Origin: Microcystis wesenbergii FACHB-1317
GTDB taxonomy: Bacteria > Cyanobacteriota > Cyanobacteriia > Cyanobacteriales > Microcystaceae
Reading direction: 5' to 3'
NCBI RefSeq assembly: GCF_014696875.1
Contig: NZ_JACJQV010000184.1
Location: forward strand, 1-61,350
DNA: 61,350 nt
Part shown: positions 47,912-61,350 of the stretch, in pieces
How positions within the stretch are numbered: the stretch's first letter is position 1
Layout: every line of letters begins with the position of its first letter
The notes under the pieces: generated by a model
Databases searched by the model: none
The model's input: only the letters and a program-made list of their open reading frames with translations
What the model was told of the DNA's origin: nothing
Position numbers and translations under genes: made by a program

Positions 47912-48811
47912 TCACTGAATCACAGTCCCCCCAGCACCGCACACCACCCGAAAACCGAGAATGTTGTCGTTGATGAAGCGGCGGTTGCAGTAGTAGCGGC
48001 AAGCGGAACGGCAGAAAGGCGGATTGAAGTACCAAGAACCGCCCCGCAGTACTTTAGTAGTATATTTGTTCTTGCTAATCCAAGCACTCCCATCAGTGGG
48101 TGCGCCTTGATAATTAGGGTGATAATCGTCCTCGCACCATTCCCAAACGTTTCCGTGCATATCGTACAGACCAAAGGCATTAGCTACCTTAAAATAGCCT
48201 ACTGGTGTCGTCTGTTTTCGATCGATGCCTTTTGGTCCCCTTCCATAATTCCCTGGATAAACTTTTTGGTCTTTTTCCCAATCAGTTCCTCTGTAATTAG
48301 CCAAATCTGTGGTAATCGTCTCCCCAAAATGAAAAGCGGTTGTTGTCCCCGCTCTACAGGCATATTCCCATTCTGCCTCACTCGGTAGCCGATACTCCCG
48401 TTTTGTTTCCCTTGATAATCGTTTACAGAATTCTGTTGCTTGCTCCCAGTTGACTCGTTCTACGGGTCTTGTCCATCTATCCTGCTCTTGATATGGCTTT
48501 TTGAAGTGGGAAGGCTCTAGTTCTAGATCGATGTCTATTTTAGCAGTTGCGGCGATCGCTCGCCACTGTACTTGGGTGATGGGATAGCGTCCCATGAAAA
48601 AAGCTGAAATATTAACGGTGTGTTGAGGACTTTCTCTTTGGAAATAGTCTCGATCGTATTCTTTACAGAGTCTTTCTATTTCTTGATCTGGGGTTCCCAT
48701 CTGAAAGGAACCGCTAGGGATAAGCATCATGTCGAGATTAATCCCTTCCCCTAAATTCTCGCTGTAATATTGTGCTTCTCGTTGCTGTCGTCGAAGGATT
48801 AATTTAGTCAT
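47912..48811 (-). CDS. FGE-sulfatase (C-type-lectin-fold) protein
   Basis: 299 aa covering one formylglycine-generating-enzyme-like domain. Visible landmarks: MLIPSGSFQMGT, FFMGRYPITQVQW, RPVERVNWEQATEFCKRLS, YRLPSEAEWEYACRAGT, GLYDMHGNVWEW, LRGGSW and GFRVVCGAGG. In true FGE two catalytic cysteines lie after GGS. Here the first is replaced (Y-F-N follows GGSW) and only the later Cys of FCRSACR remains, so enzymatic activity is doubtful and a binding role is likelier. The domain is nearly identical to that of the 875-aa protein (49716) except for a variable patch at 47957-48031. Confidence 0.88.
   Translation of the reverse strand: MTKLILRRQQREAQYYSENLGEGINLDMMLIPSGSFQMGTPDQEIERLCKEYDRDYFQRESPQHTVNISAFFMGRYPITQVQWRAIAATAKIDIDLELEPSHFKKPYQEQDRWTRPVERVNWEQATEFCKRLSRETKREYRLPSEAEWEYACRAGTTTAFHFGETITTDLANYRGTDWEKDQKVYPGNYGRGPKGIDRKQTTPVGYFKVANAFGLYDMHGNVWEWCEDDYHPNYQGAPTDGSAWISKNKYTTKVLRGGSWYFNPPFCRSACRYYCNRRFINDNILGFRVVCGAGGTVIQ
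47957..48031 (-). other. Variable patch (VR-like), copy 1
   Basis: 75 nt between the constant blocks RGGSW and GFRVV. Against copy 2 (49755-49835) the constant parts match almost base for base, including CGTTCCGCTTGCCGC in the middle, while about 14 codons differ, most of them NNC or NNT (TAC/AGC, TGC/AAC, AAC/CTC, GAC/TTC). That is the appearance of a diversity-generating retroelement variable region. A few differences (TTC/ATA, ATT/GAA, and a 6-nt length difference) do not fit a single adenine-mutated template. Confidence 0.5.
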
Positions 48812-49114
48812 TTTTTAACAAGGATTGGTGCAGGTAATGCTCACCTATACAAATGTTTGGCTCTCTTAGGTTTGGTGGGTAAAATGTATTCTAAGATATA
48901 GTCTTGCTGGCGAGGGAGTGGAAGGAACCACAAAGACACAGAGGACACAAAGATCGATCATAATGTAAGTTAAACTTATCACACAGAACCTAGAAGAGCC
49001 AAAAATAGGCAACTTCAAGCAGGATAAGGACTAAAGTTTCCTCGGAACTCTTTCTTAAGACTATCATCCCTTCTAGAAAAGCAACTAAAAAATATCTCGG
49101 AGATAAAAATAATC
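48812..49114. other. Intergenic region, no gene
   Basis: 303 bp between divergent genes. It includes CACAAAGACACAGAGGACAC, a short repeat-like motif, and A+T-rich DNA. Promoters for the FGE gene and for the antitoxin must lie here. No toxin gene or RNA gene was recognised. Confidence 0.5.
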
Positions 49115-49715: not shown

Positions 49716-52343
49716 TTACACAGTCCCCCCAGCACCGCACACCACCCGAAAACCGTTGCTTTCGTCGAAGTTGATACTGCCGCGGCGGAGGTTGTAGCTG
49801 CGGCAAGCGGAACGGCAGTAATACGGATGTATGCACCAAGAACCTCCCCGCAATGAAGAACGATTATCATTCCCATTTTCTATCCAAGCACTGCCATCCG
49901 TCGGCGCACCATCATAATTATCGTGCCAGGTATCGGCGCACCATTCCCAAACGTTTCCGTGCATATCGTACAACCCAAAGGCGTTAGCTGCCTGAAAATA
50001 GCCCACTGGGGTTGTTTTACGTCGATATTTTCCTTTGGGTTCATCGGCATAAGTTTTAGTACCAGTACCTCGATAGTTAGCTAAATCTGCCGTTATCGTT
50101 TCCCCAAAGTGAAAGGCAGTTGTTGTCCCCGCTCTACAGGCATATTCCCATTCTGCCTCACTCGGTAGCCGATATTCCCGTTTTGTTTCCCTTGATAGTC
50201 GTTTACAGAATTCCGTTGCTTGATACCAGTTGACTCTTTCTACGGGTAGCTCATCCCCTTTAAAGTGAGAAGGGTTTGTCTCTAGGTCGATGTCTATTTT
50301 AGCGGTTGCGGCGATAGCTTGCCACTGAGCTTGGGTGATAGGATAACGCCCCATGTAGAAAGAGGAAACGGTTACTCGGTGTGGGGGTTTTTCTCGTCTA
50401 AATCCATCCCAACCAAATTTTTTCACCAGTCTTTCGATTTCCTCGTCTTCAGTTCCCATCATAAATGTGCCGCCGGGGATTTCCATCAATTCCAATTCGA
50501 CTCCCTCGGCTAGTTTTTCGACAATGCCTTCTGCTTGCCTTTTTTCCTTTTTAATTACCCAATTTACTGGTTCAAAATAACTTTGAGACTGACGTTCTAT
50601 GGTTGCTAGGGTAAATTCAAAGGTACGGGTTTTTAAGGGAGGTTGCGAGGGTTGAGGGATTGGAAGGGGATTGGAGATATTAACGGCGATTTCTTCGGCA
50701 AATTCTGCGTATTCTCCCCCCAGATTGCGTAAGACTTCGATGCTGACTTGAGCAAAGGGAAGAATTTTTTCTCTTTGTTCTGGGGGATAGGTGGGTAATA
50801 GGGTTAATAAAGCGGCAAAACTGCGGATAGGACTTTTAATTTCCCCGGCAATATATTGGGAAATAGCATCGAGTACCTTGATAGTTTGTCGCCTACCGAT
50901 AGCATCATTTAAGACCTGACGTACCCCGGGCAAAAAGTCATAGACTCGATACTGTCCTTCTTCATTTTCTACAATCGGTTTTAATAGACCTCCCATATAA
51001 AATTCTGCCACATGAACGGGACGCACTTCGTTTAAAAGAGTTTTACGAATAAGATTGACCACCTGCATACTTACCGGGGCAGCTGCCATCATTTTTGCTA
51101 GTTTTTTGGCCGGTTCTGACGCGGTGGCAAAAAATCGCTCGACCATTGCCTCGGCCTTATTTTTAATGCTGTTTTTATCCTCACTGTCTTGCTTATTTTC
51201 CTCTCTGGATATAGGGGAAATTTCGATAATTTGTTGTTGAATAAATTCTAAATCAAATAAAAAGGCGGAAATCTGAGCATTACCTGACCCGGCGACAACT
51301 TTTGCCCATTGTTTGAGGACTTCTGTTTCTAACGTGATTACGGGAATAAGAAGGGTATTTTGCCAGTTAATCGGTAGCCATTGGGGATAATTTTTTAAGA
51401 TTAATTTCGGATTGGGAACACCAGCAGTTAAAGCAGTGGTAAAGAGTTTACGTCCCCGTCCTAGTTGGGTACTATTCCATAATCTTTCGGGGAAAAGTTG
51501 CAGAATAGCGGTGGGTTGTTTTTCTGACCAATCTTTTAACCAAGGATGAATTAAGGCTTTTTGCCAGAGAGGAGAAACACAATCACTGACTAACAAAACT
51601 AATCCCCGTCCCCTGGGATGAATAAGTTCTTTATGGGAGTGATAACGTTGTCCAGGTTTACCTTTTTTTCTGCGTCTTACTAACTGTAATTCTTGATTAT
51701 TTGAGGTTGATAGATGCCAAACTCTGACGGTTTTAAATGCTCCTTGATTTTCTAAGAGATTTTGTAACTCATTAATTAATTCTCGCCAAATAAAAGAGGA
51801 TCTAGATTCTTCTACTACTAATTCGAGGGTTAACCAGCGTTCCGGTTGGGGTTTAGTCACGGGTAGCCAAATATCCCTTTCTGCAATAAAAGAAGCGGTT
51901 GCTTCTTCATCTAAAATCGTTTTAGTCGCTGAGGAAACTTTTAGCATGAAAGGACGCAAAGCGCGACTAATAAAGAGTGCTGTCTGTAGTGCCGCAGCAG
52001 CAGGAACTTGAAAAGGAAAGCCTTGGATTAGGGTGGGTTTTTCTATTTCTTTGGGGAGAGATTCTTCGGTAATAATATCGACATTTGGCTGGGATTTTGA
52101 TAGGTTATCTTCTGGAATATTCTCTAAATTTTCCTCTATTTTCTTAGAAGTTGATGAATCTATTGGCTGTTTATTTTCTGGAAATATTGGCGTTGATTGC
52201 AAGTCTTCAACACCCATTTGTAAGGCCAACCAGATACTATCAGCTACATCTTCATCACTGAGTTGTAACCGTTCGAGTAGTCCTGTTTGCTCTAGATAAT
52301 CTAATAGTTTTTTAATTGATGAATTGGATGGGGATTCACTCAT
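49716..52343 (-). CDS. SAV_2336/vWA-like protein with C-terminal FGE domain
   Basis: 875 aa, last gene of a four-gene operon; it overlaps the MoxR gene by 8 bp. The N-terminus is a small helical domain (1-45) and an acidic linker. Residues about 170-310 look like a vWA fold (WLTLELVVEESRSSFIWREL, RGRGLVLLVSDCVSPLW). The metal site reads EESRSS rather than DxSxS, so it may be degenerate. A helical region (about 390-590) resembles SAV_2336-type proteins. The FGE-fold domain (about 610-875) has IPGGTFMMGT, YRLPSEAEWEYACRAGT, MHGNVWEW and GFRVVCGAGG. Catalytic FGE Cys 1 is absent, suggesting recognition rather than catalysis. Confidence 0.82.
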   Translation of the reverse strand: MSESPSNSSIKKLLDYLEQTGLLERLQLSDEDVADSIWLALQMGVEDLQSTPIFPENKQPIDSSTSKKIEENLENIPEDNLSKSQPNVDIITEESLPKEIEKPTLIQGFPFQVPAAAALQTALFISRALRPFMLKVSSATKTILDEEATASFIAERDIWLPVTKPQPERWLTLELVVEESRSSFIWRELINELQNLLENQGAFKTVRVWHLSTSNNQELQLVRRRKKGKPGQRYHSHKELIHPRGRGLVLLVSDCVSPLWQKALIHPWLKDWSEKQPTAILQLFPERLWNSTQLGRGRKLFTTALTAGVPNPKLILKNYPQWLPINWQNTLLIPVITLETEVLKQWAKVVAGSGNAQISAFLFDLEFIQQQIIEISPISREENKQDSEDKNSIKNKAEAMVERFFATASEPAKKLAKMMAAAPVSMQVVNLIRKTLLNEVRPVHVAEFYMGGLLKPIVENEEGQYRVYDFLPGVRQVLNDAIGRRQTIKVLDAISQYIAGEIKSPIRSFAALLTLLPTYPPEQREKILPFAQVSIEVLRNLGGEYAEFAEEIAVNISNPLPIPQPSQPPLKTRTFEFTLATIERQSQSYFEPVNWVIKKEKRQAEGIVEKLAEGVELELMEIPGGTFMMGTEDEEIERLVKKFGWDGFRREKPPHRVTVSSFYMGRYPITQAQWQAIAATAKIDIDLETNPSHFKGDELPVERVNWYQATEFCKRLSRETKREYRLPSEAEWEYACRAGTTTAFHFGETITADLANYRGTGTKTYADEPKGKYRRKTTPVGYFQAANAFGLYDMHGNVWEWCADTWHDNYDGAPTDGSAWIENGNDNRSSLRGGSWCIHPYYCRSACRSYNLRRGSINFDESNGFRVVCGAGGTV
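49755..49835 (-). other. Variable patch (VR-like), copy 2
   Basis: 81 nt between RGGSW and GFRVV of the 875-aa protein. It encodes CIHPYYCRSACRSYNLRRG and then SINFDESN, where copy 1 encodes YFNPPFCRSACRYYCNRRF and then INDNIL. The 36 nt after the patch, up to ACTGTG, are identical in both genes. DNA further upstream in the domain (50100-50225 against 48315-48440) is about 94% identical. Confidence 0.5.
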
Positions 52344-53355
52344 CTTCTACCCTCCCCAAATCTTTCAAAAGTTGATTAATCAGGTCATCTTCAGTTGATA
52401 TAGCTCCTTTTTTGACCATAAAAATAGCATTAAGTAATTGATCCGTGGCTAGGGTTTGTGAATTGCGCTTTTGAATGAAGTTATCAATCAGTTTATCGAT
52501 GTCTGGATTGTTAGTAATTGTTTCTTCTAAATGGGCCTCAATTATTTTAATTAAGTCGGGTTTTTCCGGTTCTTTCATAGTTAAACGGAGACAACGACGC
52601 AAAAAAGGTGGGGGAAAGTCTCGTTCTCCATTGCTAGTTAAAATCACAAAAGGAAAAGCCTTACAGATAACTAAACCATCATTTATAGGTGTTTTTATAT
52701 CTTTCTGGGTAATGTCGGTTGTATCGGTATAAGCAGTGCGGACTTCAACCCTTGGGACTTCTTCTTTTAGCCTAACTAATTCGGGGATTTCAAAGCGTCC
52801 TTCTTCAAATAAGGTGAGTAAATCATTGGGTAAATCGATATCACTCTTATCAATTTCATCAATTAACAGTACTCTTGGCTTTTCCGACTCTAATAGTGCG
52901 GTTCCCAAGGCTCCAAGGGTAATATATTTTTCAATCTGTTTTAATTGGTCTTTTCGTTCTTCTGGGGTTAATTCTTTTTGCTGCCGTTCCAGTAATTTAA
53001 CTTCCTGTAACCGACCGATCGCATCATAGTTATAAAGTCCATCTTTTAGGGTAGTATGGGTAGTAATCGGCCAGTATAATACTTCTCCTAATTTTAATTC
53101 CTGGGCGACTTTATAGGCAAGAGATGACTTTCCCGTTCCGGGTTTGCCGGTTACTAATAAAGGTCGCCGTAAATACAAGGCTGCATTGACCATTTTAATT
53201 TCTTCTTCGCGCACTAGAAAGGTTTCTCCCCGATGCTTACGACGACTTTCTCCCGGTTGCTTTTCTTTGCCAAAAGGTCGCCAGCTGGGAGGGTCTGGTA
53301 ATGTCCAAGCGTCTGTGGGATCCTGATTTCCTGTAAAAATTTTCCAGTCTTTCAT
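52336..53355 (-). CDS. MoxR-type AAA+ ATPase
   Basis: 339 aa. Walker A is GKPGTGKSS (70-78), Walker B VLLIDEIDKSD (162-172), sensor 1 ILTSNGERDFPPPFLRRCLR with the arginine finger. A C-terminal lid follows (about 260-339). The MoxR group couples ATP hydrolysis to partners with vWA domains. Here it is third in an operon, after a protease gene (8-bp gap) and overlapping the vWA-like/FGE gene by 8 bp, which matches the vWA-MoxR-VMAP arrangement. It probably acts as the energy-dependent switch of that system. Confidence 0.88.
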   Translation of the reverse strand: MKDWKIFTGNQDPTDAWTLPDPPSWRPFGKEKQPGESRRKHRGETFLVREEEIKMVNAALYLRRPLLVTGKPGTGKSSLAYKVAQELKLGEVLYWPITTHTTLKDGLYNYDAIGRLQEVKLLERQQKELTPEERKDQLKQIEKYITLGALGTALLESEKPRVLLIDEIDKSDIDLPNDLLTLFEEGRFEIPELVRLKEEVPRVEVRTAYTDTTDITQKDIKTPINDGLVICKAFPFVILTSNGERDFPPPFLRRCLRLTMKEPEKPDLIKIIEAHLEETITNNPDIDKLIDNFIQKRNSQTLATDQLLNAIFMVKKGAISTEDDLINQLLKDLGRVEDE

Positions 53356-53363
53356 GATTCAAT

Positions 53364-55265
53364 TTATGGCATCAAAAGTGGATAGTTGGGGGGAACAAGC
53401 TGATAGTCATCCCAAAGTAATGATAGATGATTCCCAATATGATTAGGGTTTCCCCAATCTGTGCGCCTTTTTTCTTTGAGATGTGCTGATAGGTTTTCTA
53501 GGTTACATTGATGACAGATATTCTCCAAGGTTTCCTGACATTCAAAATTTTCAGCTTCGCGTACCCAAACAGCGAGGGGAATTCCCGCGTAGTAAAAGGC
53601 TTCCATGACATTTTCTCGATGGGATTCTCGAAGAATTTCTAATCTTGCTCCTATAATATTCTCTGGCATAATTTTCTTATATAATTCAAAGGGTTCACTA
53701 TCACAAAAACCACAAATTTCTGTAATTGTAGCCACAATTTTGCCTTTTTTTTCTTTTAATTTCTTACACTTCTTTTGCCAAAGCAAGCTTTCCTGATCCA
53801 GTGTAGTCTTTAGCCTTTCTGAAAATCTAACTATTACTTCATATTTTTTCCCCATAGGCGGAGGAGCAAAGGAAGGATTTTTATCGATTGTTAGTAAATC
53901 AATTGGCTCAATTTCTTTTTCAATTAATTTATAGGGAAAAAATATCTGAATCTTATTAATAGAACATTGACAAAGATTGAATGCCTCTTGATAAACATCT
54001 TTCAAATACTGAACAAAAAACTGCTGCTCTAAATTCTTAATTATAATTCCTTCATTCGACTGTAAAGATTTACAATAATTTCGTTTTTGTGGAGATTCTT
54101 GGGTAGGATCATAGTGTTTTACATCTTCAATAATCCAACTCCTGAGTCTCAAACCGTTATTTTCTTTAGTGACACTAACTAGCAAACAAGGTTCTTTTTC
54201 TTGTTCCGTCCTCCCAGTTAAATTTGTTCTCTTTTGTTCACGTTTAAATTCTAATAGACGAACTAAACTTTCCCAATCGTTTTTTAGATATTTTTGTAGC
54301 CATTGTTCAAGTTCATTTCTGTAGCTTTTTCCCTGTTTAATTTCCAGAATAAGATAACCAATTAATATCTGTAACCAGGTAACTTTTAGTTGCAATTCAG
54401 TCGATATTTGTAAAACTTGTTGATCTAATATATCAATAAGCTCAGTTAAATTAAATAATAACATTTCTGTGGGTGACCTAAAATCAACTAACTGAAATCC
54501 TACGTCGGACAAAAGGTTTTGATAAGCCAATTTAAGCTGTTTTTCCAATTCAGTATAATTGTTTTTTAGCAAGATTATAATTTCAGGAATATATCCATCA
54601 ATTTTGATTGTAGGAGTATCTAATAACTCTGGAAAAGCTCTGAGCAACATATATACTGGAATAAAAAATGCAATTTTTGCTTCAGGATTATCATGCTCAA
54701 TTGCAGCTATTCCCACCACTCCTTCTAATTCTTTATCCCAGATAGCGGTTCCACTAAATCCAGCTTGTAAACGTTCACCCGTGACTGTTTTTCCCTCTAT
54801 TTGTATTTGATTATAGGCAATCCCTTTTTTGATTTCTCCATCAGCCCAAATTCCTAGATTATTTGGAAAACCAAAGGCTTCAAATTGATGCCCATCTATT
54901 CTAATATTTTGATGACTAATCAATCTTGATGGTTGAGCTTTTGGCGGTTTTAAATCCTTATTCTTGAGTTTTAAGACAGCAATATCTTGGGGATCGTCAC
55001 TTTCAAATTCAACGGGTTTCCACATTTCTACCGTTGTTTCTAAAGATGTAACCGGTGAAATTAGAGGAAAATCACACTCAATAATTTCAGTGGGTTTCTT
55101 AGTAGATGTTACATTTTCTCCTATTGATTGATTAACAACATGAGCGCAGGTAATAATATACTCTTCTGAAACGAGAAACCCCGCTCCAACAATTATTATT
55201 TCATCATTTTTATTTTCCCTTAGTTTATAGATTCTTACAATCGAAAGTTCTATATCTTCAATCAT
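53364..55265 (-). CDS. Trypsin-like protease with VMAP-C-like tail
   Basis: 633 aa. The N-terminal ~215 residues are a trypsin/HtrA-like protease with an intact triad: His42 in ITCAHVV, Asp94 in DIAVLKL, Ser171 in AGFSGTAIW. No signal peptide is present, so it acts in the cytoplasm. A helical middle (about 230-360) follows. The last ~270 residues (VTKENNGLRLRSWIIEDVKH onward; EVIVRFSERLKTTLD, FYYAGIPLAVWVREAENFEC) resemble the VMAP-C domain of vWA-MoxR-associated proteins. In those predicted conflict systems the protease is the effector. It shares a base (TAATG) with the Trypco1 gene and lies 8 bp before moxR. Confidence 0.8.
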   Translation of the reverse strand: MIEDIELSIVRIYKLRENKNDEIIIVGAGFLVSEEYIITCAHVVNQSIGENVTSTKKPTEIIECDFPLISPVTSLETTVEMWKPVEFESDDPQDIAVLKLKNKDLKPPKAQPSRLISHQNIRIDGHQFEAFGFPNNLGIWADGEIKKGIAYNQIQIEGKTVTGERLQAGFSGTAIWDKELEGVVGIAAIEHDNPEAKIAFFIPVYMLLRAFPELLDTPTIKIDGYIPEIIILLKNNYTELEKQLKLAYQNLLSDVGFQLVDFRSPTEMLLFNLTELIDILDQQVLQISTELQLKVTWLQILIGYLILEIKQGKSYRNELEQWLQKYLKNDWESLVRLLEFKREQKRTNLTGRTEQEKEPCLLVSVTKENNGLRLRSWIIEDVKHYDPTQESPQKRNYCKSLQSNEGIIIKNLEQQFFVQYLKDVYQEAFNLCQCSINKIQIFFPYKLIEKEIEPIDLLTIDKNPSFAPPPMGKKYEVIVRFSERLKTTLDQESLLWQKKCKKLKEKKGKIVATITEICGFCDSEPFELYKKIMPENIIGARLEILRESHRENVMEAFYYAGIPLAVWVREAENFECQETLENICHQCNLENLSAHLKEKRRTDWGNPNHIGNHLSLLWDDYQLVPPNYPLLMP

Positions 55266-55630
55266 TATTCCTCTGAAACTATTTTTTGATTATTTTTTTC
55301 CTTGTTATCCCATTTTAGGGTAATTTCATAGTTAACATCGGCACTTCCAGATGCAATAATAGCCCCTAGCCCAACAGTCATTTTTATCCCAAATTTTACC
55401 TCTACCTGATCGGCTGGTTCATTCAAACTTTTGACCTTATTAATTATGGCATTTGCCACCGGTTTTATGCCATTTAATGCGTCTTCAAAAGATTGAGCGG
55501 CTTTAACAGCTATTTGATCTGTTCGGCTAATAAGTTTTTCTTCTGGTTTCGGTTTGGGTAAGGGTAACTTTTCATCCACCTCGATGTAAATAGTCCCCTC
55601 CTCTGAGGTAAATTCCACTAAACGAGTCAT
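55265..55630 (-). CDS. Trypco1/CU044_2847 family protein
   Basis: 121 aa, first gene of the operon. A beta-rich first part (LVEFTSEEGTIYIEVDEKLP) and a helical middle (TDQIAVKAAQSFEDALNGIK) are followed by the family's glycine-rich VEVKFGIKMTVGLGAIIASG and a final strand (VNYEITLKWD). These small 'trypsin-co-occurring' proteins are found next to trypsin-like effectors of conflict systems. They may control the protease; the role is not established experimentally as far as I know. An AGGAGAAT sequence lies just before the ATG. The stop overlaps the protease start by one base. Confidence 0.82.
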   Translation of the reverse strand: MTRLVEFTSEEGTIYIEVDEKLPLPKPKPEEKLISRTDQIAVKAAQSFEDALNGIKPVANAIINKVKSLNEPADQVEVKFGIKMTVGLGAIIASGSADVNYEITLKWDNKEKNNQKIVSEE

Positions 55631-55718: not shown

Positions 55719-56546
55719 TTACCAAGTGTTCGGTTGAAAGTCAGCATCATTAATAATTGCCACCGTATCCCCAGAGGGTTTAATCACAAATAAACCTTTT
55801 TTATAAGCATAGCGATCGATTCCTTCGTTAATTTCAATTCCTGCCACTGCACCGTAAGCTCGATAGTTTTTGTAATGGGGAAAAGCGATTTTAAAACGAG
55901 TCAATTTTTCGATAAATTCATCCACATCATCTTGAGATAATCTCGATTTACATTCCACCACCACGAGATCGGTATCATCCACTCCTAGGATATCAATTTC
56001 CATGGCGATACCTTGACGCTTGACTCGAGCGCGGGGATAAACTTCCTTAATATCAATGCCTTTCTCCTGAAAAAGCCGTAAAACCGCCGGTTCTACCAAT
56101 TCCTCCACAAATCGACCCCAGCGAGTGGTGAGACTATCTACCGCTTTGCTGGTTCTTTCTACGGTGCGTTTCAGTTCTGCCATCGAGCGATCGGCTTCGG
56201 CAGACCGGCGCTCGCTTTCTAATTTCGCTTCGGCAGCTTGGCGCTCAAGTTCGGCAGCCCGGCGCTCGTTTTCTAATTTCGCTTCGGCAGCTTGGCGCTC
56301 AAGTTCGGCGGCCCGGCGCTCGCTTTCTAATTTCGCTTCGGCGGCCCGGCGCTCGCTTTCTAATTTCGCTTCGGCAGCTTGGCGCTCAAGTTCGGCAGCC
56401 CGGCGCTCGTTTTCTAATTTCGCTTCGGCAAAGATACGCTCCATTTCCGCTCGACGAAGATCGCTTTCCCGTAAACGGCGATCAAACTCCTCGGCGGAAG
56501 CGCGGAATAGCTGGTAAATATCCTCAAGGGTTACAGGTTCACTCAT
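55719..56546 (-). CDS. Coiled-coil PD-(D/E)XK-like protein (DUF3782 type)
   Basis: 275 aa from ATG 56546 (MSEPVTLEDIYQLFRASAEE); an ATG at 56570 adds eight residues. Residues about 20-125 are an Ala/Glu/Arg coiled coil made of 18-residue repeats (ERRAAELERQAAEAKLE). The C-terminal ~150 residues look like a nuclease-type fold: MEIDILGVDDTDLVVVECKS, with the D...ExK pattern, then DVDEFIEKLTRFKIAFPHYK. Such proteins are common in cyanobacteria and of unknown role. It lies 89 bp upstream of the Trypco1 gene on the same strand, so it could be part of the operon, but the spacing leaves that open. Confidence 0.8.
   Translation of the reverse strand: MSEPVTLEDIYQLFRASAEEFDRRLRESDLRRAEMERIFAEAKLENERRAAELERQAAEAKLESERRAAEAKLESERRAAELERQAAEAKLENERRAAELERQAAEAKLESERRSAEADRSMAELKRTVERTSKAVDSLTTRWGRFVEELVEPAVLRLFQEKGIDIKEVYPRARVKRQGIAMEIDILGVDDTDLVVVECKSRLSQDDVDEFIEKLTRFKIAFPHYKNYRAYGAVAGIEINEGIDRYAYKKGLFVIKPSGDTVAIINDADFQPNTW
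56227..56421 (-). repeat. 54-bp in-frame coding repeats
   Basis: Three nearly identical 54-bp units (56227-56280, 56281-56334, 56368-56421) and one 33-bp partial unit (56335-56367) encode the coiled coil of the DUF3782-type protein. Lengths are multiples of three, and the partial unit lacks exactly seven residues (ELERQAA). Copy number is likely to vary between strains. Confidence 0.85.
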
Positions 56547-56570
56547 GGACTGACATCGGAAACACAACAC

Positions 56571-57199
56571 CCCTAATTATTTTAGCGATTCGGTCGAGAA
56601 AACCGAGGAGCGCGAGAGAGCAAAAACGGGATAAATATTAAGAATTATGTAGTCTCAACAGAGAAAACGGGTTTCTTCAAGAAACCATGAGAAAACGGGT
56701 TTCTCAAAGGAACCCGTTTTCTGTATATAATGTTAATTTATGTTATGGAAGTCTTGAAAAATTGGCGATTGTTTGCACAAAATAGTCGCATTAATCTTTT
56801 GCAGTTAACGTCATCACTTCTTCTCTTTTGCCGAGCCTTTCTGCTGTTTACGATAGTTTGTTCAATTTTGCTGAATCTGATGGCTTGAGTCAAGTTAATC
56901 AGGTGAATAGTGCGAGAAATCAGGGTTTAACCGCACCGAATTTAATTTGATTTTCTCTGATTCATGAATAAACCTGATGAAAAAAAAAAAAAAAAAATAA
57001 GCATATTTTATATTCTATTGACGGTAGAAAAAAACGCTCTCAAAATGGTAGAAACGATTAATTGATGGTTTGACAGTCTTCAAGCCTAACCTAGACTGGC
57101 TGCGGTTGCGGAAAACAGGCTGACTCGGCTGAATAAATAATATTAAAGCAGCTTGTGGGCAATGCCCACCCTACACCACTCACCAGGAACCCTTGTATT
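56571..57199. other. 629-bp gap with decayed sequence
   Basis: No intact gene. It holds two family B hairpin pieces (56655-56725) and an A18 run (about 56981-56998). An open frame without a start, about 56833-56952, reads LPSLSAVYDSLFNFAESDGL then SQVNQVNSARNQGLTAPNLI before a stop, and may be the tail of a lost gene. A GTGGGCAATGCCCAC palindrome is at about 57155-57170, shortly before the giant gene. The promoter of that gene should lie in the last 100 bp. Confidence 0.6.
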
Positions 57200-60100
57200 A
57201 TGTCTCGCCAAACCAATCTCAACCAGTCCGTAGTTTTCCTCGATGCTGGTGTCACCGATTATCAAAGTCTCCAAGCTGGAGTAATCCCCGGAATCGCCAC
57301 CGTTATTCTCTCTGCCAAGGAAGACGGAATCGAGCAAATCACCGCTTTTTTACAACAAAATCCCCAGATTACCACCATTCACCTCGTTTCCCATGGTGCG
57401 CCTGGATGCTTATATTTAGGGAATTGTCAACTTAATTTAACAAATATTTACGATTACCGCCAACAGTTACAGAATTGGGCAAAGATTAATCGTATTCTAC
57501 TGTACGGTTGTCAGGTAGCAGCGGGAGATGCAGGAGAAGAATTTATTGAGAAGTTACATCAGTTGACGGGTGCGACGGTGATGGCTTCAGCGACACCTAC
57601 GGGAAGTAGTCGAGGGGGAGGAGATTGGGAGTTAGAGGTAATAGTTTCTCCCGCTGAAAGTGAGCAAGATTTGAATATTTCCTTGGCGTTTAATGGAGAG
57701 ACTTTAGCTACTTATCAGGGAGTATTTACTCTTTCTTTAGTGGGTAATTATGATACTCCTGGCAATGCTTATGGGGTTTATGTAGTGGGAAACTATGCTT
57801 ATGTAGCTGATTTTAGTTTAGGGCTGCAAATCATCGACATCAGCACCCCTACTAACCCCACTCTCATTGGCAATTATGATACTTCTGGCTTCGCTATGGA
57901 TGTGCAAATAGTCGGCAATTACGCATATCTAGCTGATGGTTTTGCCGGACTGACAATCATCGACATCAGCAATCCAAGCAACCCCACTTTCAAAGGCAAT
58001 TATTCTGGTTTTGGTTGGGGTTATGGGCTGGAGGTAGTGGGAAACTACGCTTATGTAGCTAGTGATTATCAAGGACTGACAATCATCGACATCAGCAATC
58101 CAAGCAACCCCACTTTCAAAGGCAATTATGATACTTCTAGTCGGGCTTTGGAAGTCCAAGTAATCGGTAATTACGCATATGTAGCTGATTATGAGTCAGG
58201 ACTGCAAATTATCGATGTCAGTAACCCAGAAAACCCCACTCTGAAAGGTAATTATGATACTCCTGGCATTGCTAGTGATGTGGAAATAGTCGGCAATTAC
58301 GCATATCTAGCTGATGGTTGGGATGGAGGACTGCAAATCATCGACATCAGCAACCCCACTAACCCAACTCTCAAAGGCAATTATGATACTAACGGCGTTG
58401 CTGGTGATGTGGAAGTAGTGGGGAACTACGCTTATTTAACTGATGATATGGCAGGACTGAAAATCATTGACATTAGCAACCCGACTAACCCCACTCTCAT
58501 CGACTATTACAATGATTTTTCTACCGTTGCTTATGGTGTGGAAGTAGTGGGGAATTACGCATATCTAGCTGATTATTTTGACGGTTTAAAGATTATTGAT
58601 GTCAGTAACTTCAATAACCCATCGCCTTTACCAAGTGTCACCTTAGCAGTTTCCACCACCAGTGTTACTGAAGATGGAACAACTAATTTAGTTTACACTT
58701 TCACCCGCACAGGAGACACAACCAATCCTTTGACGGTCAATTTTACAACAGTCGATGATACAGACTGGTGGAAAAGAGCCATCTTTAATACAGATTACAG
58801 TCAAACCGGTGCAGCCAGTTTCCCAAATTACTCAAATGAAACAGGAACAGTGACTTTTGCTGCTAATTCTGCGACTGCAACTGTAACAATTGACCCCACA
58901 GCAGATACCACAGTTGAAGATGACGAAACCGTCAGCTTAACCCTCACTTCTGGGACTGACTATACAGTTGGGACAACTACTCCAGTGACGGGGACGATTC
59001 TCAATGATGATACCCGTGTTACCCTTCAGGTTTCTCCTAGTCTTGTCACCGAAGATGGGACAACCAACTTAGCTTACTACTTCTACCGCGAGGGTGTAAC
59101 AACCAATGCTTTGACAGTTAACTATGCAGTTGGGGGTACAGCTACCCTTAATACAGACTACACCCAAACCGGTGCAGCGAGTTTTAATGGGACAACAGGG
59201 ACAGTGACTTTCGCCGCTAATGCTACTACTGCTACCGTAACAATTGACCCGACAGTAGATAATATAGCTGACCCGGATGAAACTGTAACTTTAACCCTCG
59301 CTTCGGGGACTGGTTATACAGTGGGGACAACCACCACAGTGACGGGAACAATTAATGACGATATCAACCCCCCTATCCCCACTTTCATCAGCAAATATGA
59401 TACTCCTGGATGGGCTTTTGGTGTGGAAGTAGTGGGAAATTACGCATATTTGGCTGATTATGATTCAGGACTGCAAATCATCGACATCAGCAACCCCAGT
59501 AACCCCATTTTCAAAGGCAATTATGATACTGACGGCGCTTGGGATGTGGAAGTAGTGGGGAATTACGCATATCTAGCTGATGGGAGTTCAGGACTACAAA
59601 TTATCAACATCAGTAACCCCACCAACCCCACTTTCATCGGTAATTATGACAATTTTAGTGCAGTCGTTGATGTGCAAGTAGTGGGGAATTACGCATATTT
59701 GGCTAATGGGAATTCATTACTGCAAATCATCGACATCAGCAATCCCACCAACCCCATATTAAAAGGCAGTTATGATGATAGTTCTGGTTTTGCTGATGGT
59801 GTACAGGTAGTGGGGAATTATGCTTATATAGCTGATTATTTTTCAGGACTGCAAATCATCGACATCAGCAATCCCACCAACCCCATATTAAAAGGCAATT
59901 ATTATAGTTCCGGTAATGCTAGGGATGTGGAAGTAGTGGGAAATTACGCATATTTGGCTGATTATGATTCAGGATTGCAAATCATCGACATCAGCAATCC
60001 CACCAACCCCATATTAAAAGGCAATTATTATAGTTCCGGCGAGGCTACTGATGTGCAAGTAGTAGGGAATTACGCATATCTAGCTGCTGGAGGAGGTGGA

Positions 60101-61350
60101 CTGCAAATCATCGACATCAGCAACCCTACTAATCCCACTATCAAAGGTAATTATCAAAACAACTATGACTATGCTTTTGATGTGAAAGTAGTCGGTAGTT
60201 ATGCTTATGTAGCTGCGCGTGAAGGCGGATTGCAGATTATTGATGTGAGTGAGTTTACCAATCCACAAACTGTTACTCTTGCTGTCTCTCCCAGTAGTGT
60301 TACTGAAGATGGGACAACTAACTTAGTCTATACCTTCACCCGTAACGGAGTAACAACTAATCCCTTAACCGTCAACTATACAGTTGACGGAACAGCTACT
60401 TTTAGCACAGATTACACTCAAACTGGTGCAGCAACTTTCACCAGTACAACCGGGACAGTGAATTTTCTTGCTGGTTCAGCGACTGCTACTGTAACAGTTG
60501 ACCCCACTGCTGATACAACAGTAGAAAGTGATGAAACTGTTGCTTTAACTCTTACTTCTGGGACTGGTTATACAGTTGGGACAACTACCGCAGTGACGGG
60601 GACGATTACCAATGATGATTTCCCCAGTATTACCCTGGCGGTTTCTCCCAGTAGTGTTACTGAAGATGGGACAACAAATCTAGTCTATACCTTCACTCGT
60701 ACTGGTTCTACTACCAGCGCCTTAACCGCTAACTATACAGTTGGGGGGACAGCAACCAATGGAACCGATTACACTTCTATCCCCACCAGTGTCACCTTTG
60801 CTGCTGGTTCAGCGACTGCTACTGTAACAGTTGACCCCACTGCTGATACAACAGTAGAAAGTGATGAAACTGTTGCTTTAACTCTTACTTCTGGGACTGG
60901 TTATACAGTAGGTACGACTACCGCAGTTACTGGAACAATTAATAATGACGATACCAGTGTCACCCTAGCAGTTTCTCCTGAAAGTGTGAGCGAAGATGGG
61001 ACAACAAATCTGGTTTATACCTTCACCCGTAGTGGAGTAACAACAAATGCTTTAACTGTCAACTATACAGTTGAAGGGACAGCAACCAATGGAACCGATT
61101 ACACTTCTATCCCCACCAGTGTCACCTTTGCTGCTGGTTCATCCACTGCGACTGTAACAGTTGACCCCACTGCTGACACAACAGTAGAAAGTGACGAAAC
61201 TGTTATTTTAACTCTTGCTTCTGGGACAGGTTATACCGTAGGTACGACTACCGCAGTTACGGGAACAATTACCAATGATGATACCAGTGTCACTCTTGCG
61301 GTTGCTCCCAGTAGTGTTACTGAAGATGGGACAACAAATCTGGTTTATAC
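57200..61350 (+). CDS. Giant DUF4347/LVIVD/Calx-beta protein, partial
   Basis: Open from ATG 57200 to the window edge (1,383 complete codons); the 3' end is missing. Residues about 10-165 are a DUF4347 domain ([43 protein letters not shown]), found at the start of large secreted cyanobacterial proteins. Residues about 180-470 hold seven LVIVD repeats ([10 protein letters not shown]...LQIIDISNP). Two Calx-beta domains follow (about 479-600 and 606-722), then seven more LVIVD repeats (about 735-1018), then at least three Calx-beta domains and the start of another. There is no Sec signal, so type I secretion with a C-terminal signal is likely (inference). Confidence 0.9.
57735..60255 (+). repeat. 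Two blocks of seven LVIVD coding repeats
   Basis: Block 1 (about 57735-58610) and block 2 (about 59385-60255) each contain exactly seven units of roughly 125 bp with the core GTAGTGGGGAATTACGCATA and CTGCAAATCATCGACATCAG. Seven repeats per block would close a seven-bladed beta-propeller each. Within block 2, units starting near 59860 and 59985 are almost identical (CAATCCCACCAACCCCATAT), showing recent duplication. Confidence 0.85.

Follow-up and report, generated by a model that had tools for sequence, protein, structure and literature searches.

A VMAP-type operon of Microcystis wesenbergii whose FGE-domain ends appear to be orphan targets of diversity-generating retroelements

Introduction

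In cyanobacteria, VMAP systems, with their Trypco1 components, FGE-domain fusions and linkage to diversity-generating retroelements (DGRs), have already been described (PMC7159879), and published work predicts for the family as a whole a role as conflict devices, in phage defence or self-killing (PMC7159879, PMC10907252). The present work concerns a four-gene set of this type in Microcystis wesenbergii FACHB-1317, which encodes a Trypco1 protein, a VMAP protein beginning with a trypsin-like protease, a MoxR-type AAA+ ATPase and a fusion of a SAV_2336 (vWA-like) part with an FGE domain. It lies on contig NZ_JACJQV010000184.1 of assembly GCF_014696875.1 (5.04 Mb, 248 contigs, completeness 99.86%); this single contig of 61,350 nucleotides, analysed as a whole, is referred to as the window.

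DGR-diversified sensors, their activity in trans inside one genome and plasmids as possible DGR vectors are treated in PMC10907252, remote DGR targets in cyanobacteria in PMC7517822, which mentions Microcystis for orthocaspases and in a reference, and adenine mutation in the DGR targets of Nostoc punctiforme in PMC12691664; the survey of PMC8144416 was, by its own statement, unable to detect remote targets. Among the papers listed in a literature search that did not extend to preprint servers and most subscription journals, no account of orphan DGR targets in Microcystis was seen. DGR-tuned VMAP systems are already published; what is new is a set of orphan targets that, compared with their related copies, prove to be rewritten in 30 pairs and frozen in 21, with no intermediates.

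The cyanobacterial VMAP ternary systems with DGR-linked FGS/FGE domains (PMC7159879) have the same MoxR protein, vWA-like/FGE protein with variable region, VMAP-C, trypsin and Trypco1 as the window, but for those called DGR-associated in that paper the template is reported either near the locus or at another place in the same genome, whereas neither reverse transcriptase (RT) nor template was found in the genome of the window. The loci of Thiohalocapsa PB-PSB1 and of clades 5A/5E (PMC10907252) likewise place a DGR-diversified C-lectin beside MoxR, some of them with Trypco1/trypsin, and clade 5A has, like the window, a short target consisting of the CLec domain only alongside one with a long N-terminus; activity in trans within the genome has been proposed for some of those targets, whereas for the window RT and template were found only in relatives. 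The SAV_2336 part belongs with the SAV_2336 N-terminal domain-related proteins (NF041121, table 1), of which the window protein differs in having an FGE domain from those at 50 of the 76 loci scanned, many of them actinobacterial, where no FGE match was obtained. The same FGE/CLec fold is found in TvpA of Treponema denticola (2y3c), which is not known to be part of a MoxR/VMAP operon.

Composition and linkage of the operon

On composition, the operon is classified as a VMAP-type ternary conflict system, made of Trypco1, trypsin/VMAP-M1/VMAP-C, MoxR and SAV_2336/FGE proteins. The initial annotation had described four minus-strand genes that overlap or lie at most 8 bp apart, and this arrangement is borne out: the Trypco1 and VMAP genes overlap by 1 nt, the VMAP and MoxR genes are separated by 8 nt, and the MoxR and fusion genes overlap by 8 nt. 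Its Trypco1 assignment is upheld by the PF19493 profile (5e-24), and the predicted VMAP-C-like tail of the 633-aa protein by a match to VMAP-C (PF20028, 1.7e-20, above cut-off), beside those to Trypsin_2 (3.5e-9) and VMAP-M1 (1.1e-5). The Trypsin_2 domain at the VMAP N-terminus, the predicted effector, is paired with a Trypco1 protein. The protease triad His42/Asp94/Ser171, which had been called intact, is unchanged in all 23 aligned trypsin-VMAP proteins, the window protein among them, and the 50 matches in the Protein Data Bank (PDB) listed for the VMAP structural model (predicted local distance difference test, pLDDT, 77.5) consist almost wholly of proteases with the trypsin/HtrA fold or of larger proteins that include such a protease. 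The earlier identification of a MoxR protein with good Walker motifs agrees with the AAA_5 profile (table 1) and with the motifs GKPGTGKS and VLLIDEID read directly in the sequence; the bpMoxR profile gives 2.2e-4, under its cut-off.

Gene linkage was followed in a scan with the SAV alignment, one genome per species, which yielded 76 loci, 69 of them with at least 3 kb of upstream DNA and used for this purpose. MoxR is encoded upstream in 63/69 and VMAP-C in 66/69; trypsin-VMAP proteins occur in 23/69, and Trypco1 accompanies 19 of these 23 vs none of the other 46. The consistent linkage of homologues to moxR and Trypco1 is, in this form, confirmed. A scan of genome contigs with the VMAP protein as query retrieved no relatives. 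The five closest SAV loci in the named-genome scan are all from Microcystis (85-93% identity across the SAV part), and the orthologous four-gene set is present in eight of 12 Microcystis genomes; in G011 (handles beginning with G denote genomes, G000 being that of the window), which is of the same species as the window, the VMAP-C search gave no match.

A second set in the window's own genome (L208:1178-6281 (-), G000:C117) consists of an AAA_5/MoxR-like gene, followed by a gene for a protein that matches VWA_CoxE (2e-4) and SAV_2336 weakly and has an FGE domain with variable region, and a third gene without Pfam match.

Variable regions of the FGE genes

The ends of the fusion gene and of a nearby gene for a stand-alone 299-aa FGE protein are, judged from template comparison, DGR variable regions. 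Five templates were compared, the best-fitting one being selected for each variable region, and for both regions of the window it is that on plasmid p1 of M. aeruginosa NIES-2481: the fusion differs from it at 17 of 32 adenine sites and 2 of 69 others, being 6 nt longer, and the 299-aa protein at 18 of 32 and 2 of 69, with no gap. The two gene ends share a constant block, present in eight copies in the genome with 0-1 mismatch (three were allowed) and in none in the reversed-pattern control, and the DNA upstream of the eight copies varies in the manner of DGR variable regions. By sequence, the FGE domain itself is matched by PvdO at 1.5e-32 and by TvpA, a variable protein of a DGR, at 1.6e-20. 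It had previously been taken as a plain recognition fold; the domain is indeed present, and the variable region near its end had been overlooked.

The same pattern extends across the genus. When 80 distinct variable regions, taken from 12 genomes, are set against their templates, 1299/2441 A, 65/2357 C, 20/1617 G and 26/1530 T of the template are mismatched, i.e. 53% of A vs 1.2-2.8% of C, G and T, and the upstream control (up to 500 nt, pairs with rewritten cores as defined below) has no excess at A (A 154/4839, C 163/3116, G 167/3634, T 117/3303). Seven of the eight orthologous fusions could be compared, that of G009 being dropped because its FGE end lies in two frames; their nucleotide difference rises from 3.3% in the SAV part and 7.4% in the constant FGE part to 29.6% in the variable region, where amino acid divergence reaches 55% and change affects 39.7% of codon positions 1 and 2 and 9.3% of position 3.

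At another locus of the same genome (L203:10892-15208 (-), G000:C165), five FGE domains and five variable regions follow one another in a single open frame, which runs for 1438 aa or more.

The retroelement in this and related genomes

When the window's own genome was searched with a Microcystis DGR RT, 0 matches were obtained at E up to 0.01. Its sole RVT_1 match is an AbiA-type protein (L001:1036-2985 (+), G000:C75), which was rejected as diversifier, as it belongs to the AbiA abortive-infection family (TIGR04499, 1.9e-150). The template search in this genome found all eight constant-block copies at gene ends, and none of the 16 matches to the NIES-2481 template and its downstream DNA spans more than 128 of 211 bases, 15 lying at FGE genes and the remaining one being coincidental, within a repetitive gene. 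A guessed template pattern gave no match in the 12 genomes of the genus; templates were located beside DGR RTs in relatives.

Template-region matches, mostly variable regions, occur in all 12 genomes (6 to 16 each), and an intact RT frame, accompanied by Avd and by a template with many AAC codons, in four (G002, G003, G004 and G010), the Avd of G004 matching NF033474 at 1.7e-38. The RT whose template resembles the class seen in the window is intact in G004 only, with pieces at 92-96% identity in G003, G007 and G010. The flanking DNA is common to G004 (RT intact), G010 (RT cut short) and G003 and G007 (small remnants), which argues for one inherited chromosomal locus that decays and leaves a purely plasmid-borne RT unsupported. 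G002 retains 1.3 kb of this flank, and, among the matches listed for the window's genome (25 of 132 candidates scored), only short repeat-like pieces of it were found. G001 (one contig) has no DGR RT beyond, at most, a 30-residue piece, and G011 (two contigs) has none; the stretches read contain eight adenine-marked variable regions in the former and nine in the latter. The target beside the RT of G004 looks, by eye, CHAT/STAND-like.

Two plasmids also carry DGR components. On p1 of NIES-2481 a partial RT adjoins the best-fitting template, and on p1FD4 of M. aeruginosa FD4 (43.6 kb; L182) an RT of another class lies in a VMAP-DGR locus that contains a TIR protein, a VMAP-C-matching hypothetical protein, MoxR, SAV_2336/FGE, Avd, RT, template and FGE, with an IS5-like transposase between Avd and RT. 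Typing places both plasmids in the non-mobilizable category. The genus yielded four intact DGR cassettes, of which two, those of G003:C9 and p1FD4, adjoin a VMAP system.

Rewritten and frozen cores

Pairs of variable regions were drawn from a set of 87 that came mostly from the stronger template matches and carry the anchor pattern (one anchor-less region in L257 was missed), requiring different genomes and upstream DNA at least 94% identical; the resulting 51 pairs are not independent. They fall into two states with none between, 21 frozen (core at least 98.7% identical) and 30 rewritten (at most 77.8%). Of the pairs with both members located in VMAP neighbourhoods, 21 are rewritten and one is frozen; of those with neither, six are rewritten and 20 frozen, 16 of the latter from one gene group; the three mixed pairs are rewritten. 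Four genes sit in both frozen and rewritten pairs, so that 'frozen' describes pairs and not single genes. Neither does the current presence of an RT predict frozen pairs, the frozen/rewritten counts being 14/14 when neither genome has an intact DGR RT, 7/13 when one has and 0/3 when both have.

The gene group that supplies 16 of the 21 frozen pairs is represented in the window's genome by a TIR-FGE protein (L207:6131-7558 (+), G000:C83), whose core is identical or one base off in related genes of eight of the 12 genomes and which, on these comparisons, is a frozen DGR target. Each of the two variable regions of the window enters three pairs, and all six are rewritten, so that the window's sensor was rewritten after separation from the genomes compared, ongoing rewriting not being indicated; as neither RT nor template turned up in this strain, its sensor is probably fixed at present. 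All four pairs between the window's genome and G011 in the 94% set have identical cores, and a laxer comparison of the two genomes has one gene frozen, one with a single core change and one rewritten (86.5% upstream identity).

The SAV_2336 part as a vWA-like domain

The fusion was modelled with AlphaFold2 from an alignment of 54 sequences, and the model is confident across most of residues 121-370, where strands alternate with helices. Foldseek gave two PDB matches below 0.001, TvpA (1.7e-4) and chain G of NorQD (7e-4); the latter is probably NorD, a vWA protein that partners a MoxR-type ATPase. Several vWA domains, along with many phosphoribosyltransferases, are among the weaker matches. In the 54 aligned sequences the metal-motif column holds D in 37 and E in 17 (Glu in the window protein), the second Ser column S in 41, and the S/T-D motif keeps its Asp in all 54; VWA_CoxE matches one of these relatives, at 3e-5. 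We read the SAV_2336 part as a probable divergent vWA domain, on fold and motif. The 875-aa protein had been annotated as vWA-like/SAV_2336 with a terminal FGE domain; its SAV_2336 and FGE parts are established by profile (table 1), and its vWA character is suggested by fold and motif and finds no profile match.

Feature coordinates and neighbouring genes

Table 1. Features of the operon and of the second target gene in the window.
Feature	Position	Strand	Basis
Trypco1 protein (trypsin-co-occurring domain 1), 121 aa	55265..55630	-	PF19493 5e-24; CU044_2847 family 2.5e-22
VMAP protein, 633 aa	53364..55265	-	trypsin-like res. 27-186, VMAP-M1 233-365, VMAP-C 417-620 (Pfam)
MoxR-type AAA+ ATPase, 339 aa	52336..53355	-	AAA_5 9.3e-10; Walker motifs
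SAV_2336 (vWA-like)/FGE fusion, 875 aa, DGR target	49716..52343	-	NF041121 2e-145 (res. 30-503); PF03781 4.9e-52 (res. 619-868)
Putative vWA-like core of fusion, about res. 163-374	51222..51857	-	strand/helix alternation, mostly pLDDT >85; Foldseek; motif columns
FGE (C-type-lectin-fold) domain of fusion, res. 619-868	49740..50489	-	PF03781; TvpA top Foldseek match 1.7e-4
DGR variable region of fusion, with flanks	49738..49844	-	template comparison; orthologue divergence
Hypervariable core of fusion, about 27 codons (res. 837-863)	about 49755-49835	-	
Constant 3' block after variable region, likely homing block	49728..49754	-	
Second DGR target, stand-alone FGE protein, 299 aa	47912..48811	-	PF03781 5.1e-53
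Variable region of 299-aa protein, with flanks	47940..48040	-	template comparison

Between the two target genes (48853-49006) lies an inverted repeat with two 36-nt arms, 82 nt apart and 72% complementary. Directly upstream of the operon (55719-56570 (-)) a 283-aa coiled-coil protein with a weakly PD-(D/E)XK-like C-terminus is encoded (weak DUF3782 and CARF_PDDEXK matches), and at 57155-61348 (+) begins a giant repetitive protein with, by eye, LVIVD-like and Calx-beta-like repeats. Elsewhere in the genome (L276:496-1358 (+), G000:C201) two similar small proteins in tandem, in which a G-G-G stretch precedes a variable, repeat-rich C-terminal tail (by eye), look like peptide precursors.

Proposed mechanism and alternative explanations

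Operon, domains, intact triad, linkage, adenine-targeted variable regions and the lack of RT and template in the assembly are the observed side of a reading to which we assign a probability of roughly 0.6, namely that of a DGR-diversified VMAP ternary conflict system in which an FGE sensor acts through the vWA-like/MoxR pair on the VMAP trypsin, with self-killing or arrest as the outcome. The hypervariable FGE pocket, written by adenine-targeted mutagenic retrohoming, would bind a ligand marking invasion; the vWA-like part of the fusion would pass this signal on to MoxR, its partner, with ATP as threshold; ATP-driven remodelling by MoxR would free or activate the VMAP trypsin, of which Trypco1 may be a dedicated cofactor or leash; and the cell would kill or arrest itself once the trypsin acts. 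In other words, a protein with an antibody-like scrambled tip probably switches on a cell-killing protease. The direction of signalling, protease activation, cell death and phage as the trigger are what we infer beyond the observed side. Several observations weigh against such a system, or against its being at work in this strain: neither RT nor template of a complete DGR was found in the assembly, so that diversification may have stopped; the operon is disrupted in three of the eight Microcystis genomes that have it (G001, G008, G009); the model of the fusion is poor at its C-terminal end (pLDDT <50 from residue 738); and, as to the vWA assignment, phosphoribosyltransferases equal most vWA domains in fold-search score, the motif of the window protein is non-canonical, with Glu replacing the first Asp, and no Pfam vWA model matches the fusion.

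That the variable pocket senses, vWA-MoxR relays and the trypsin executes is the model of Dore et al. (PMC10907252), whereas Kaur et al. (PMC7159879) saw the VMAP protein as the sensor; our data do not favour either. In the latter scheme, proposed in PMC7159879 and summarised in PMC10907252, VMAP senses, MoxR relays and the trypsin cleaves the vWA/FGE protein, so that the freed variable FGE domain coats or blocks the invader. In its favour, the VMAP middle region is, by eye, poorly aligned between loci; adenine-targeted diversification of a lectin-fold pocket fits a receptor at least equally well, and we hold this version to be a less likely alternative. Microcystis is colonial, and the operon might, instead, be a non-defence relay for DGR-tuned self-recognition, colony or stress signalling, as suggested for cyanobacterial DGR targets generally. 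Regulatory tuning is argued for in PMC7517822, but the linkage to trypsin/Trypco1 and VMAP-C, the TIR neighbour of the sister system on p1FD4 and the CHAT/STAND-like appearance of the target beside the G004 RT make a non-defence role rather improbable.

As to the origin of the variable ends, paralogue recombination or ordinary positive selection without any DGR could draw on the numerous paralogous FGE genes of the genome; however, the changes are located at template adenines, 76 of the 87 cores are distinct, and among equal-length pairs a single near-identical one (98.6%) has clearly diverged upstream DNA (74%), so that paralogue shuffling, when tested, was unsupported and this explanation is very improbable. 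A retroelement that is present, perhaps on a plasmid, acting in trans today and lost among the 248 contigs would agree with the plasmid location of the best-fitting template and with the tendency of repeated sequence to break assemblies, but the high completeness, the lack of any RT match at the E threshold above, the absence of a DGR RT from the two-contig G011, with its nine variable regions in the stretches read, and the identical cores of all four G011 pairs speak against it, and we consider it doubtful. Only slightly less tentative is the proposal that the diversifier is transient in Microcystis, RT and template staying for a while, rewriting many dispersed chromosomal sensors in trans and then decaying to leave frozen sensors that are passed on over long periods. 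Such a history agrees with the two-state core identities, with the remnants of RT genes and with the existence of orphan targets; its carriers would be the chromosome (G004, G002) or plasmids such as p1FD4 and NIES-2481 p1, the RT of the latter being partial. Delivery by plasmids is, however, opposed by their non-mobilizable type, by the template class of p1FD4, which differs from that of the window's variable regions, and by the decay of a chromosomal locus common to several genomes, which accounts for some of the loss.

Significance

The operon places a predicted DGR-tuned, protease-armed conflict system in a bloom-forming colonial cyanobacterium. Since some genomes of the genus have the diversifying enzyme and others do not, they form a natural comparison in which resequencing could test whether such sensors persist as fixed memory or depend on continuous rewriting. 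If the diversifier is transient, a bacterial immune repertoire would be hypermutated in hit-and-run fashion and afterwards kept as a germline-like memory.

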